The position numbers and the translations under genes are program-made. The notes beneath the pieces were generated by a model. The model saw only the letters and a list, made by a program, of their open reading frames with translations, did no database searches and was not told where the DNA came from. This document shows, one piece after another, positions 9,575 through 49,697 of a stretch of DNA of 49,697 nt. This stretch comes from an uncultured Fimbriimonadales bacterium (GTDB taxonomy: Bacteria > Armatimonadota > Fimbriimonadia > Fimbriimonadales > GBS-DC). The stretch spans positions 1 through 49,697 of the forward strand of contig CALKLF010000011.1 in the NCBI GenBank assembly GCA_937992175.1. The letters run 5' to 3'. Numbering within the stretch: position 1 is the first letter of the stretch; the number at the start of each line of letters is the position of its first letter.

Positions 9575-9788
9575 GTCGCTCCCCCCTTCCTGCAAATGTT
9601 AAGGGCAAAGGAAACCTATCAGAAAGCACTCTGCAGCGTTTAAATGACTGACAAGTAAGTCTTTCGCTTTTTTACAAGGATTTCAGCGTTCATTCGCGTT
9701 TTTGCTTGGTCTAATCAATCGGTTGTGGGGGCTACAGACGCCTATACAAGATTTGCCTCTTCTCCCTTTCAAAACCCTCGTGTTCAGG

Positions 9789-9794
9789 TATAAT
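9789..9794 (+). promoter_or_regulatory. Leaderless extended -10 promoter of phoU
   Basis: CAGGTATAAT places TATAAT at 9789-9794, only 8 nt before the ATG at 9803. With normal initiation spacing the transcript would begin at or next to the start codon. No Shine-Dalgarno sequence is present. The 200-bp dnaA-phoU gap otherwise shows no clear DnaA boxes. Confidence 0.6.
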
Positions 9795-9802
9795 AACGCC
9801 CC

Positions 9803-10561
9803 ATGATAACGCGGCAAGCTTTTGACGCAGAACTGCAGGAGCTGGAGACGAAGGTGCTTGCGATGGCAAGCATCGTGGAGGGGATGGTCGCCGATGCGGT
9901 GGAGGCGCTCTGGCGCAACGATATGCACCGCGCTGAGCAGGTACTCAAGCGCGACGACGAGGTCGACCAGATCGATGTGGAGATCGAGTCCAGCTGCCTG
10001 CGCCTGATTGCCCTGCAGCAACCGATGGGCAGCGACCTGCGCATCATCGGGACGATTATGAAGATGATTACCGATATCGAGCGTATCGGCGACTACGCGG
10101 TCGATGTCGCCAAAGCCGCGCGCAAGATTCAGGACGAGCCGCCAGTGGAGCAAATGGTGGACATTCCCCGCCTCGCGAACGCCGCGCGCCGCATGCTGCT
10201 GGAGAGCATCGAGGCGTATGTCAAGCGCGACCTGCAGAAGGTCATCCATGTGTGTCAGCAGGACGACGAGGTGGACGAAATCTACCGACGGATCCGCACG
10301 CAGCTGCAGGAGATTATGCGGGCGCACCCCGAGCAGGTGACGGCGGCGTCATGGCTGCTGCTGACGGCGCACTATCTGGAGCGCATCGCCGACCACGCGA
10401 CGAACATCGCCGAGCGGGTCTGGTTCATGGAGACAGGACGCCTTGAGCAGCTCGCCAAGAAGCACAAGAGCGGCGCGCTGGAGGAGGCGTTCGCCGAAGC
10501 AGCGCAGCACGCCGCCGAAACTCAGACGGGCGAAAACGACACGAATGCTCTCCCTGTCTGA
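9803..10561 (+). CDS. phoU: Phosphate signalling/transport regulator PhoU
   Basis: This 252-residue all-helical protein is made of two PhoU repeats. Each carries the metal-binding E/DxxxD helix: ITDIERIGDYAVD in the first and HYLERIADHATNIAERV in the second. PhoU links the Pst phosphate transporter to the PhoR histidine kinase and dampens phosphate uptake. Neither pst nor phoBR genes are in the window. The C-terminal 30 residues are an Ala/Glu-rich extension. The 3' end overlaps yggS by 17 nt, so the two genes are co-transcribed. Confidence 0.95.
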   Translation: MITRQAFDAELQELETKVLAMASIVEGMVADAVEALWRNDMHRAEQVLKRDDEVDQIDVEIESSCLRLIALQQPMGSDLRIIGTIMKMITDIERIGDYAVDVAKAARKIQDEPPVEQMVDIPRLANAARRMLLESIEAYVKRDLQKVIHVCQQDDEVDEIYRRIRTQLQEIMRAHPEQVTAASWLLLTAHYLERIADHATNIAERVWFMETGRLEQLAKKHKSGALEEAFAEAAQHAAETQTGENDTNALPV

Positions 10562-19651: not shown

Positions 19652-20859
19652 TAAGGATTGCCTGCCGCGCCGAAAATCGAACTGAAGTAGCCCGCGTAGA
19701 ACTGAATGAGAACTATCGCCACATAAATCGCCACGCCGAGATAGACCGCCACGCCCAGAATGTACCCTGCCTGATGGGAGCGCAGCTTACCCTCCTCCTC
19801 ATAATATTCGGCGACCTTGTCCATCATAAAGCCGAGCTCGCCTGTGTTTTCGCCCGTGGCGACCATATTCATCACCATCGGGGGGAAGACGCCCGTGCTG
19901 GCGAAGGTCTGCGCGATGCTGTAGCCCGCTTCGAGTTTGGAACCTGCGGGCTGGATTCGGCTACGCAGGTACTCGTTGCCGGTGGCGTCGGCGGCGTAGC
20001 GGATGGCTTGCGAGAGGGGCAGCCCCGCGCCGTAGAGCGCGCTGAGCGCACGGGCGAACCGCGCCAGCGCCAGCTGGCGCACCGTGAAGCCAATCCACGG
20101 CAGGCTGACTGTGAATAGCCCCCATGCATACCGAAAGCCCTGCGCCTGCATCGCCAGCCGAAAAGCCGCCCAGACAACGAAAACCGCCAGCAGAATCTTC
20201 GCATAAGTCCACGCGATGCGTGCGAGCGTCTCGCCTACAGGCGCGCCGCCCGACGCGCCCACCAGCGTAATCAGCGCAGGGATCAGCCCCGGTATCAGGA
20301 TGGCGAAAAACAGCACCAGCTTGGGATAGAAAGTGACGCGACTTATCAGGCGGCGCAGTTCGAGTTCGTTCTCCATATAGGTTGCAATCTGGCGTAAGAT
20401 GTTTTCCAGCGCGCCGCCCGTCTCGCCCACGCGGATCATCGCGCGAATCATCGGCGAGAAAATCGCAGGATGCTTGTCGAAGGCGTCGGCGAGGCGTTCG
20501 CCTGCGAGAATCGAGTTGCGGATGTCGTTAAGGGTACGGCGCAGGCGGGCGTTGCCCCCCCGCTGATTGCCGAGCGTCTCCAGCGCCTGATAAATCGGCA
20601 CGCCCGCCGCCAGCATCGTGGCGAACTGACGGAAGAACACCGCGAGCGTTTTCAGCGGGACGCCGCCGAACAGGGGCTGCCATACGCCCTGATGGGCGGC
20701 GCGTACGGGCGTCGTCGGCTCTGGCTCGGCGTAGAGTTCGAGCAGCCAGTAGCCCTGCTTACGCACGGCATCGGTCGCCTCGAGGCGCGTGCTTGCCTGT
20801 ACCGTGCCCCGCACCTCGCGTCCTTCGGGCGTCTGCGCAATATAGCGAAAGAGGGGCAT
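19651..20859 (-). CDS. Type II secretion F family protein (second PilC/GspF paralogue)
   Basis: This protein of about 402 residues is a second platform protein of the PilC/GspF family. It has an N-terminal FRYIAQTPEGREVRG domain, then T2SSF repeats with MLAAGVPIYQALETL and LYGAGLPLSQAIRYA. It is well diverged from the copy at 2915-4135, so it probably serves another machine, such as a type II-like secretion or pseudopilus system. No GspE ATPase is adjacent. The pseudopilin at 14649-15494 could be a client. ATG 20859 is 6 nt behind a CGGTATAAT box (leaderless), which argues against the TTG 6 nt upstream. Confidence 0.92.
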   Translation of the reverse strand: MPLFRYIAQTPEGREVRGTVQASTRLEATDAVRKQGYWLLELYAEPEPTTPVRAAHQGVWQPLFGGVPLKTLAVFFRQFATMLAAGVPIYQALETLGNQRGGNARLRRTLNDIRNSILAGERLADAFDKHPAIFSPMIRAMIRVGETGGALENILRQIATYMENELELRRLISRVTFYPKLVLFFAILIPGLIPALITLVGASGGAPVGETLARIAWTYAKILLAVFVVWAAFRLAMQAQGFRYAWGLFTVSLPWIGFTVRQLALARFARALSALYGAGLPLSQAIRYAADATGNEYLRSRIQPAGSKLEAGYSIAQTFASTGVFPPMVMNMVATGENTGELGFMMDKVAEYYEEEGKLRSHQAGYILGVAVYLGVAIYVAIVLIQFYAGYFSSIFGAAGNP

Positions 20860-20865
20860 GCACAA

Positions 20866-20873
20866 ATTATACC
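20866..20873 (-). promoter_or_regulatory. Leaderless -10 promoter of the second pilC-like gene
   Basis: On the minus strand CGGTATAAT (TATAAT at 20871-20866) ends 6 nt before ATG 20859. No ribosome site exists between them, so initiation should produce a transcript starting at about the start codon. Confidence 0.6.
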
Positions 20874-32708: not shown

Positions 32709-33140
32709 CCCTCACCCCCAGCCCCTCTCCCACTGCGTGGGAGAGGGGAGTGGCGCAGCACGGACACTCCTGTCCGTGCGCGGGCGTGGCACGGGCGTCG
32801 CGCCCGTGCAGGTTTTTGCTTGGACGGGATTGTCCAAGCGACAGTCCCCTGCCCCCCTTTCCCACAGCGTGGGAGAGGGTAGCCGAGCGCGTTCACTGCG
32901 CTTTACCTCTCCCCTCTCCCGCGACGCGGGAGAGAGGGCAGGGGGTGAGGGCGGAAAGAATGCTGTTCTGCGTCTTCCCGCTAAACTCAGCTGTCGTACT
33001 CCTATCAGGAATGGGGTGTGGGCAAGATTACAAATTCCCCACATCCCCACGCCGAGATTCCTCGCCTTCGGCTCGGAATGACATAAAAACAAGCAACCCC
33101 CTCTCCCACGCCGTGGGAGAGGGGGCAAGGGGGTGAGGGT
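32709..33140. repeat. Repeat-filled gap of 456 bp with seven palindromes
   Basis: Contents: CCCTCACCCC...CTCCCAC/GTGGGAGAGGGG (32709-32748); GCACGGAC around ACTCCT (32758-32779); GCACGGGC around GTCGC (32789-32809); GCTTGGAC around GGGATT (32818-32839); two further CTCTCCC-type palindromes (about 32850-32960); the GAGATTCCTCG arm (33054-33083); and another CTCTCCC palindrome (about 33094-33140). No gene is supported in 32684-33139. Confidence 0.8.
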
Positions 33141-46065: not shown

Positions 46066-46159
46066 GCACGGGCGTTCCCGCCCGTGCAACGCCTACCCGC
46101 TCTGTAGCACGGGCGGGGACGCCCGTGCCACGCACTGCGCTTGAGCGAGACGCTCAAGC
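46066..46159. repeat. Three modular hairpins between a DUF2007-like gene and terC
   Basis: GCACGGGC around GTTCCC (46066-46087), GCACGGGC around GGGGAC (46107-46128) and GCTTGAGC around GAGAC (46139-46159). All three loops are variants of GTCCC or its complement. Confidence 0.8.
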
Positions 46160-46185
46160 CACGGGGTGTAGGATACCTGAAAAGG

Positions 46186-46191
46186 TACAAT
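46186..46191 (+). promoter_or_regulatory. Leaderless -10 promoter of terC
   Basis: AAAGGTACAAT places TACAAT at 46186-46191, 11 nt before ATG 46203. No ribosome site is present. Confidence 0.5.
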
Positions 46192-46202
46192 TCCCGCCCG
46201 GT

Positions 46203-46907
46203 ATGGAAGCCCTGATTGCGCTGCTGACGCTTACGGCGCTGGAGATTGTGTTAGGGATTGACAACATCGTCTTCATCTCGATTCTGACCGACAAGCTGCC
46301 GCCAGAGCAGCGGGCGAAGGCGCGCTTTATCGGATTGAGCCTCGCGTTTCTGCTGCGCGTTGCGTTCCTGCTCTCCATCACCTGGATTATGCGCCTCGAA
46401 AGCCCCCTGTTCGCGGTTCTGGGCAACGAGTTCTCAGGGAAAGACATGATTTTAATTGCGGGTGGGCTGTTTTTGATGGGCAAGGCGACCTACGAGATTC
46501 ATCACAAAATCGAAGTTGCGCAGGGCGAGGTCAAAGTGCCCAAAATGCTCACGCTGACCACCGCCGTTGTCCAGATTATCCTAGTAGACCTCGTATTTTC
46601 CGTCGATTCGGTGATTACCGCGGTCGGGCTGGCGCGCGATTTGTGGGTGATGATTACCGCCGTGCTGATTGCGATTGTTTTCATGATGGCGTTTGCGGGC
46701 AGCGTGAGCAAAATGATTGACACGCATCCCTCGTTGAAGGTGCTGGCGCTGGCGTTTCTGGTGCTGATTGGTTTCAATTTGATGGGCGAGGGCTTCGGCT
46801 ACAAGATTCCGAAGGGCTACACCTACTTCGCGATGGCGTTCTCGCTGGCGGTGGAAGTGCTGAACATCCGCTTACATCATCGCCCCACGAAGCCGCCTGC
46901 GAAGTAG
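46203..46907 (+). CDS. TerC family integral membrane protein
   Basis: This 234-residue protein has about seven transmembrane helices with the TerC acidic motifs: LGIDNIVFISIL in helix 1 and DLVFSVDSVITAVG in the middle. TerC-family proteins move Mn2+ or other divalent metals and load exported metalloenzymes. The manganese/iron-type superoxide dismutase is encoded 1 kb downstream. This protein is shorter than full TerC of E. coli (about 320). The start follows a leaderless promoter. Confidence 0.92.
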   Translation: MEALIALLTLTALEIVLGIDNIVFISILTDKLPPEQRAKARFIGLSLAFLLRVAFLLSITWIMRLESPLFAVLGNEFSGKDMILIAGGLFLMGKATYEIHHKIEVAQGEVKVPKMLTLTTAVVQIILVDLVFSVDSVITAVGLARDLWVMITAVLIAIVFMMAFAGSVSKMIDTHPSLKVLALAFLVLIGFNLMGEGFGYKIPKGYTYFAMAFSLAVEVLNIRLHHRPTKPPAK

Positions 46908-47966: not shown

Positions 47967-48722
47967 TCAGCCGCCCGCCTTCATGCGCAGTGCGGCCTCA
48001 TAGCGCGCGTTCACGACATTCCAGTCGATAGCCTGGATGAACGCATCGATGTAGCGGGCGCGCGCCGTCTGGAAGTCCAGATAGTAGGCGTGTTCGTACA
48101 CATCCATCGCCAGCAGCACTGTGCAGTTCCACATGTGGAAAGTGTTTTGCGCGTCGCCGATGTAGTTGAACAGGCTGCCGTCGTCGTGGTCATAGGCGAG
48201 CCACACCCAACCGCGACCGCCCATGCCTGTGCCTTTCAGGTCTTCCAGCCAGCGTTCGTAGGAGCCGAAGTAGCGGGCGAGCGCAGCGCGTAGCTCACTG
48301 CTTGGCTCAGACCCGCCGCCGCCGATGTTCTCAAAATACAGCTCGTGGTTCTTGAAGCCGCCGTAGGCGAAGGTGTAGTCGACCTTCAGCGAGCGAATCA
48401 GGCTGTAGCTCTGGTTGCCCTTGCTGAAGTCGTCGGAAGTAAGTTGCGCCAGCGCACGGCGGATTTCGTTCGTCTTGTTCACATACCCCTGATAGAGCTT
48501 GTAGTGTTCCTCGTGCGTCTTGCGCGAGATGCCGAATTTCTCGGTCTCGAACACTTTCTCGGGCAGGGGTTTGGCAGTGACTTCAAACACCTGAATCTCA
48601 GCCATAGCGGATACCCTCCTGTTTGTTGGAATAGCCAGCGCGTGGGGAGCCATTACCGCAAAGGTGGTGGTCACCGCCACCTGTTGCAGAAACTCCCGTC
48701 GCGAAAGGCGTTTCGCGCTCAT
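47967..48722 (-). CDS. sod: Superoxide dismutase (Fe/Mn family) with twin-arginine signal
   Basis: This 251-residue protein starts with a Tat signal: SRREFLQ, the hydrophobic core AVTTTFAVMA and a cut near HALA. The SOD domain follows, with metal ligands His in EEHYKLYQGYV, His in KNHELYFENIGG and the DVYEHAYYLDF motif (Asp and His). It removes superoxide. Start ATG 48722 lies 9 nt from GGTATAAT (48732-48737), so it is leaderless. A second start, ATG 48605, has AGGAGGG (48620-48614) 8 nt upstream and would give a 212-residue form without the signal. Both forms may be made. Confidence 0.93.
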   Translation of the reverse strand: MSAKRLSRREFLQQVAVTTTFAVMAPHALAIPTNRRVSAMAEIQVFEVTAKPLPEKVFETEKFGISRKTHEEHYKLYQGYVNKTNEIRRALAQLTSDDFSKGNQSYSLIRSLKVDYTFAYGGFKNHELYFENIGGGGSEPSSELRAALARYFGSYERWLEDLKGTGMGGRGWVWLAYDHDDGSLFNYIGDAQNTFHMWNCTVLLAMDVYEHAYYLDFQTARARYIDAFIQAIDWNVVNARYEAALRMKAGG

Positions 48723-48731
48723 AACGGCAGG

Positions 48732-48739
48732 ATTATACC
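48732..48739 (-). promoter_or_regulatory. Leaderless promoter of sod
   Basis: Minus-strand GGTATAAT (TATAAT at 48737-48732) lies 9 nt before ATG 48722, which starts the Tat-signal form. No Shine-Dalgarno is near this ATG. Confidence 0.6.
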
Positions 48740-48747
48740 CCGTAGTA

Positions 48748-48798
48748 GCACGGACATTCCTGTCCAAGCCACAGAGGCTTGGACAGGACTATCCAAGC
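48748..48798. repeat. Hybrid and GCTTGGAC hairpins upstream of sod
   Basis: 48748-48769 combines a left arm GCACGGAC, loop ATTCCT and a right arm GTCCAAGC from another family, so its arms pair only partly. GCTTGGAC around AGGACT with ATCCAAGC follows at 48777-48798. The first element is chimeric, which suggests recombination between hairpin types. Confidence 0.65.
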
Positions 48799-48803
48799 AA
48801 CTT

Positions 48804-49697
48804 TCACCTGTCCATCCGCAGCACATCCTCGTAGGTTTCCCGCTCCACAATCACCCGCGTCTCGCCGTTGCGCACTGCGACCATCGCAGGGCGCGGATAG
48901 CGGTTATACTGGCTGCTCATCGAGTAGGCGTAGGCGCCTGTGGTGAGAACGGCAATCACATCCCCCGCGCGGGTTTCGGGCAACAGGGCGCAGTCGATGA
49001 GAGGGTCAGTCTCGCAATGTTTGCCCAGAACGCGGTAGGGATGGATGTGTGGCTCTGCCCTGCGACTGACATGCACGGCGGTATAGCGCGCGCCGTACAT
49101 CTGTGGGCGCGGATTGTCCGAGACGCCACCATCCACAATCAGGTACTCGTGAGGCAGGTTCGGGATGTCATGGGGAGTCTGCTTGACCGCCCCCACGCAA
49201 TAGAGGGTCACGCCCGACTCGGCGATTAGCGAGCGTCCTGGCTCCACACCGAGCGCAGGTTCGGGATAGTTGCGCTGCTTGCACGCCTTGCGCAGCGCGC
49301 TCACCAGCGTCTGAGCGTATTCCCGTACCGAGGGCGGCTGGTCGTCGGGCGTGTAGCGAACCGCCAGCCCGCCGCCGATGTTCAGCAGCGACGCCACATA
49401 GCCGTATCGCAGGCGTACCGCGTGAGCGAATTCCACCATCGCCTGCACCGCTGCCGCGAACGCACTCAGGTCGCTAATCTGCGAGCCGATATGGCAGTGG
49501 AAGCCGCGCAACTGAACACGGGAGTTGCTCAGAACATGCTCCACAGCGCGGAAGGCGTCACCATTCAGCAGATGGAAGCCGAACTTGCTGTCGCACTGCC
49601 CGGTGCGGATTAATGGGTGCGTGTCGGCGTCTACTTCGGGGGCGATGCGGATGAGGATGGGAAAACCGCCGCTCGGCTCGCTCGCGCCACCGTCGCG
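48804..49697 (-). CDS. lysA: Diaminopimelate decarboxylase, 3' part (5' end beyond the window)
   Basis: The frame stays open to the window edge, so the N-terminal part with the PLP lysine is missing. Visible are GQCDSKFGF and FHCHIGSQ (H of the cofactor pocket), NIGGG, EPGRSLIAE, and the catalytic-loop segment CETDPLIDCALLP with the conserved Cys. The enzyme decarboxylates meso-diaminopimelate to L-lysine. An unusual Gly/Ser insert (about 12 residues) lies near the window edge. The stop is followed by hairpins. Confidence 0.93.
   Translation of the reverse strand, partial: RDGGASEPSGGFPILIRIAPEVDADTHPLIRTGQCDSKFGFHLLNGDAFRAVEHVLSNSRVQLRGFHCHIGSQISDLSAFAAAVQAMVEFAHAVRLRYGYVASLLNIGGGLAVRYTPDDQPPSVREYAQTLVSALRKACKQRNYPEPALGVEPGRSLIAESGVTLYCVGAVKQTPHDIPNLPHEYLIVDGGVSDNPRPQMYGARYTAVHVSRRAEPHIHPYRVLGKHCETDPLIDCALLPETRAGDVIAVLTTGAYAYSMSSQYNRYPRPAMVAVRNGETRVIVERETYEDVLRMDR

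Follow-up and report, generated by a model that had tools for sequence, protein, structure and literature searches.

Superoxide barely crosses membranes, and therefore each compartment of a cell needs its own protection, usually by means of separate genes. Systems are known in which superoxide dismutase (SOD) carries a twin-arginine (Tat) leader, or in which one gene serves two compartments. The MnSOD of Pseudanabaena PCC 7367 has a Tat leader on an Fe/Mn-type SOD, and a second Met past the predicted cleavage site has been proposed as the start of a cytosolic form (PMC11636452); no other paper on dual starts in a Tat-SOD was found in the literature searched. A predicted Tat signal is likewise found on the Fe/Mn-type SodA2.1 of Chroococcidiopsis (PMC8193680), and in Nostoc/Anabaena PCC 7120 the single gene for SodA gives both a membrane/lumen and a cytosolic enzyme (Raghavan et al., cited in PMC8193680 and PMC11636452). 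Dual starts are already known in bacteria (PMC11005335), as in Salmonella proteoform pairs such as PagC, OmpX and SseL, where the choice between in-frame starts decides whether a targeting signal is retained.

The sod gene of an uncultured Fimbriimonadales bacterium appears to belong with these systems, as one gene with two in-frame starts that probably gives both an exported and a cytosolic SOD. An earlier sequence-only reading had proposed these two forms, and the proposal is well supported by comparison with relatives, although there is no proof at the protein level. The presence of both starts, their conservation, the genes for Tat machinery, the single copy of sod and a complementary pattern of gene copy number are shown here.

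The sod locus, its enzyme and its genome

The window (the whole stretch of DNA that was analysed, 49,697 nucleotides) carries sod on the minus strand, the strand of all sod features below. The long ORF (47967-48722, with the stop at 47967) encodes a Tat leader and Fe/Mn SOD of 251 amino acids. Its start, ATG1, is at 48722 and is followed by MSAKRLSRREFLQQ, with the -10 element GGTATAAT (48732-48739, TATAAT at 48737-48732) upstream and a spacer of 9 nt, CCTGCCGTT, between TATAAT and ATG1. The frame from ATG1 reads MSAKRLSRREFLQQVAVTTTFAVMAPHALAIPTNRRVSA and then MAEIQVFEV from ATG2 (48603-48605), the predicted start of the cytosolic form, which is in frame and 117 nt (39 codons) 3' of ATG1; the short ORF from ATG2 (47967-48605) encodes a putative cytosolic SOD of 212 amino acids. 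The Tat signal peptide MSAKRLSRREFLQQVAVTTTFAVMAPHALA (48633-48722) has a probable AxA-type cleavage after residue 30, the linker IPTNRRVSA (48606-48632) lies between the probable cleavage site and ATG2, and the internal Shine-Dalgarno (SD) AGGAGGG (48614-48620), with a duplex energy of -10.8 kcal/mol, is separated from ATG2 by 8 nt, TATCCGCT. The positions that the sequence-only reading had given for TATAAT and for ATG at 48722 and 48605, together with its AGGAGGG and the 117 nt between the starts, proved exact to the base.

The product of sod is taken to be an Fe/Mn superoxide dismutase (SodFM), with both its activity and the identity of its metal inferred. The C-terminal domain (PF02777) scores 93 bits against a cut-off of 20.9, and the N-terminal domain (PF00081) scores 24.3 bits, slightly below the cut-off of 27. 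All metal ligands are present, as judged by motifs and by alignment to the best solved relative 1coj, an Aquifex SOD; numbered from ATG1 they are His73 (48504-48506, motif EEHY), His126 (48345-48347, motif NHEL), and Asp207 and His211 (48090-48104, DVYEH). Loss of the last His of HXXXHH is a trait of the SodFM4 subfamily (PMC10172142) that is common to the SOD described here, which carries HYKLYQ where HXXXHH is expected, and the enzyme fits SodFM4 on the basis of this trait and not of its placement in a tree.

The genome is a 2.83 Mb assembly that is 94% complete, its nearest named relatives being metagenome-assembled genomes of Fimbriimonadales / Armatimonadota, and a hot-spring habitat is inferred for the source bacterium. 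The genome yielded a single Fe/Mn SOD and no Cu/Zn SOD, with the caveat that at this completeness a second SOD could be missed. The Tat machinery is represented by one clear TatC and two TatA genes, one of the latter (PF02416) lying at 1521-1667 on the minus strand of the same contig, unlinked to sod. A tatA in the window had been claimed earlier and held; the nearby terC (46125-46907), also invoked, is present but carries little weight here. The incomplete source assembly did not yield the 16S 3' end, whilst its sequence in relatives, one single-contig genome among them, includes GGATCACCTCCTT.

Just 5' of the sod promoter, the 21-base GGACAGGAATGTCCGTGCTAC (48745-48765, minus strand) forms part of a strong palindrome. 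It occurs again with 2 mismatches at 32755-32775 (minus strand) in the window and a similar element lies 5' of sod in L009; the element resembles an interspersed palindromic repeat, and may possibly be one.

Two start sites and their conservation

The leader motif SRREFLQ...HALA matches the S/T-R-R-x-F-L pattern, with a hydrophobic region and an AxA-type site. It had been called a twin-arginine signal from the outset, which held as a sequence motif, and the motif and leader are kept in 17 of the 17 SODs of the family. TIGR01409 scores the leader at 17.4 bits against a cut-off of 16.7 and at 13.3 bits when the whole protein is scanned, and a score so near to the family cut-off is a point against the two-form reading. 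The leader is nevertheless regarded as a Tat signal, with Tat-dependent export inferred. Within the genus dN/dS is 0.19 for the leader codons and 0.05 for the enzyme; the former value, taken with the conservation of the SD and ATG2, suggests that both readings are under selection. Of 12 Tat-motif matches in the genome, the handful of clear Tat proteins available for checking have no comparably strong SD ahead of an internal ATG near the cleavage site, a weak control because the proteins are few.

There is no SD at ATG1, and the -10 element lies immediately 5' of it, which is the form of a leaderless start. TATAAT lies exactly 9 nt 5' of ATG1 in 13 of 13 members of the genus and in two further genera, the spacing being 6 nt in a third (L015), and GGTATAAT is found with a GTG start in a fourth (L016). 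The DNA flanking the box cannot be aligned within the genus, yet the box itself is fixed. An element in this position would place the 5' end of the mRNA no more than about 3 nt from ATG1, giving a leaderless transcript. Leaderless genes occur in many bacteria (PMC3160421), and no paper on leaderless transcription in the source phylum was found in the literature searched. The pattern GGTATAAT-N4-16-ATG occurs at 138 sites genome-wide compared with 1 for the reversed control pattern, with spacings that are mostly 6-10 nt, thus a leaderless ATG1 would be ordinary in this bacterium. Leaderless transcription is likely to be widespread in the lineage, although this is inferred from sequence alone. 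Further examples of GGTATAAT followed by ATG are found in the window at 9787-9805 (plus strand) and 20857-20873 (minus strand).

The sequence-only reading had named a promoter for sod, of which the -10 held, with the small correction that no -35 box is recognisable upstream of the gene; conservation backs nothing beyond the -10 element and both starts. When 48500-48900 was scanned for sigma-70 promoters there was no match, and the scan misses the real -10 too because it demands a -35. This bears on the possibility that the two forms arise from two transcripts, with an internal promoter or a processed mRNA feeding AUG2. Sequence does not exclude such a reading and promoters in the phylum are poorly known; against it there is no promoter match in the interval, weak as that evidence is when the scan also missed the -10, and the reading is considered very unlikely. 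One candidate internal promoter at GTATCC, 3' of the SD, was rejected as it is not conserved in L012-L014, whereas the SD is.

It might also be supposed that only the cytosolic enzyme is made, AUG2 being the sole start and the upstream frame an untranslated leader. The strength of the SD at AUG2 and the lack of one at AUG1 favour this. However, the frame 5' of ATG2 codes for a complete Tat signal that is kept by purifying selection, and the -10 box is at a leaderless distance from ATG1; this explanation is considered very unlikely.

For ATG2 within the two-start reading, the internal SD and ATG exceed chance expectation. All 17 SODs of the family have ATG2 with a strong SD (duplex energy of -8.8 kcal/mol or lower), and only 4 of 699 internal in-frame ATGs, taken from long ORFs of the window and of nine related contigs, are at -10.8 kcal/mol or lower. 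When the eight upstream codons are recoded synonymously the observed energy is reached in about 1 in 1000 recodings in 16 of the 17 family members, with p about 0.06 in L015. The RR of the linker is written AGG AGG in 13 of 13 genus members (p about 0.001 each from codon usage alone), and ATG GCT GAG is invariant in the same members, the sole invariant run of three codons within the first 159 codons, whilst other synonymous sites in these 13 species vary (dS about 0.7-0.9). Across the family the SD is encoded through differing residues (RR, KE and GR), which argues for selection on nucleotides, and the highest peak in the profile of SD energy lies at the distance of ribosome binding. Synonymous recoding tells most within the bacterium's own family, as elsewhere residues such as KE or EE fix the SD; in Fimbriimonadaceae it mostly falls short of significance, the amino acids alone being enough to spell the SD.

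A further point against the two-form reading is the partial pairing of the SD and AUG2 in the predicted mRNA fold, with unpaired probabilities of 0.28 for the SD and 0.13 for AUG2 at 37 C, and 0.35 and 0.39 at 60 C. Both N-termini are inferred, but in sequence the locus has what is asked of a dual-start gene, a further in-frame start served by a conserved initiation signal of its own.

Relatives and SOD gene copy number

Within a sample of the class (113 genomes, 47 genera) the Tat leader is present on some SODs and absent from others, and its state changes at least 15 times on a tree of 117 sequences, some outgroups included. The Tat-free relatives begin at the position of ATG2. Outside the family, ATG2 and an SD-like site are retained by most relatives that bear the leader, with a mean SD energy of -5.9 kcal/mol at ATG2 compared with -5.8 kcal/mol at the start of the Tat-free relatives. 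For Tat-bearing class members outside the family the genus-mean internal SD is -7.0 against a background of -2.3 from internal ATGs on related contigs (permutation p about 1e-5), although picking the ATG with the best SD in the expected interval of each sequence inflates the observed value somewhat. Close relatives with a Tat leader (L160, L162) and without one (L159, L172) have a common SD-ATG region, therefore the leader has apparently been gained or lost whilst the SD start stays. One genome of the same family (G013, genus g2, 97% complete) was found to have no Fe/Mn SOD of any kind, whereas the other 17 genomes searched in the family do have one.

Were the cytosolic enzyme to come from the internal start, a second gene would be expected wherever a Tat SOD lacks that start. 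In 291 genomes of the phylum a Tat SOD with an internal SD start is the sole SOD in 62 of 63 cases, with an extra SOD gene in 1 of 63, whereas a Tat SOD without such a start is accompanied by an extra gene in 14 of 17. At genus level the extra gene is found in 1/22 with the internal start and 11/13 without (Fisher p 2e-6), and the extra copies that were inspected have no signal peptide. The threshold for an internal start (SD energy of -3.4 or lower) was set after seeing the data, but the choice matters little because 15 of the 17 Tat-only cases have no ATG at all in the interval, the other two being L114 (0.1) and L258 (-2.1). The exceptions are L114 and L132, which lack a usable internal SD and in which no second gene was found, and L237, which has an internal SD as well as a second gene. 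The copy-number pattern complements the two-start arrangement and so supports it, albeit with only about 7 independent switches once relatedness is considered; an independent-pairs sign test gives the same direction with a median p of 0.5, having no power with so few switches.

The sequence-only reading would have been refuted by relatives lacking either the Tat leader or the internal SD. Within the family 0 of 17 lack either; in the wider class relatives without the leader and relatives without the SD do exist, and the Tat-bearing ones without the SD nearly always have a second SOD.

These comparisons bear on two remaining alternatives. In the first, the enzyme is only exported, with translation beginning at AUG1 alone, and the internal SD and ATG survive as a relic from an ancestral cytosolic gene to which a leader was later added. 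The shared start of the Tat-free relatives is in its favour, as the site may be ancestral. However, a relic should decay, yet AGG AGG is fixed in 13 species amid varying synonymous sites, the SD survives via other residues elsewhere, and a missing internal start accompanies an extra SOD gene, making a relic very unlikely. In the second, one product is sorted to two places by incomplete export or proteolysis, for which there is precedent in the dual location cited for the Anabaena/Nostoc PCC 7120 MnSOD (PMC8193680, PMC11636452). This leaves both the conservation of the SD and ATG2 and the copy-number pattern unexplained, and is again very unlikely.

A variant of the two-start arrangement is apparently present in family f19 (L244-L250, 7 species), where there is one SOD gene each and two SD sites are conserved. 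No in-frame ATG or TTG was found for the Tat leader between the conserved promoter boxes (TTGAAAAT and GGTAyACT, upstream of the start region) and the twin arginines. Instead, 5' of GRRRFLK there is an invariant CAGGAGGTG and then an invariant ATC, 8 nt after AGGAGG; invariance extends to the internal AGGAGGA and ATGGA. Read most simply, and from sequence alone, the exported form would come from a weak AUC start and the cytosolic form from a strong AUG start, although a GTG overlapping the SD is a possible start and is not fully excluded. In an unrelated lineage, a WOR-3 bacterium (L099/L240) has a Tat-like SOD leader with an internal AAAGGAGGT...ATG and a single SOD found, which may possibly reflect independent origin or transfer.

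Proposed mechanism and comparison with known systems

In the proposed mechanism, the GGTATAAT promoter would be sod's own and would give an mRNA with almost no 5' UTR. Leaderless initiation at AUG1 would then give a Tat precursor that folds before export and is cleaved near residue 30, and ribosomes on the internal AGGAGGG would start at AUG2 to give an ordinary cytosolic enzyme, with the two-start gene standing in for two SOD genes where only one is found. The use of both starts in the cell, the location of each form and any regulation of their ratio are inferred, there being no expression, proteomic or localisation data; the earlier suggestion that leaderless and SD initiation set this ratio likewise remains inference only.

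A bolder reading, possible but less likely than not, is that two translation starts replace gene duplication, an arrangement maintained in many genera, with the exported share set differently per lineage, by a leaderless AUG in the bacterium's own family and apparently by an SD-led AUC in f19. The ratio of exported to cytosolic enzyme may then shift with stress, as the two modes of initiation, leaderless and SD-led, can differ in their response to the state of the ribosome. An annotation that chooses one start for sod would miss half of the biology. The phylum offers natural experiments (a two-start gene, an export-only gene with a cytosolic gene, and a cytosolic gene only) that make compartment dosage via translation initiation, and a tunable leaderless/SD ratio on one mRNA, directly testable.

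Compared with known systems, the Pseudanabaena PCC 7367 MnSOD differs in that the second start is a brief proposal, without an SD, conservation or copy-number test in the sections bearing on it, in a genome that also has FeSOD and CuZnSOD, and that SOD is of another type and phylum. For the SodA of Nostoc/Anabaena PCC 7120, proteolytic processing of the signal and linker is credited and no second start, and in Chroococcidiopsis the cytosol is predicted to be served by separate genes. The Salmonella pairs involve other proteins, with Sec or type III signals and not Tat; unlike them, the two starts of sod are kept throughout a family and are complementary to gene copy number. It is this deep conservation of both start signals, together with the complementarity with SOD gene copy number, that appears to be new.
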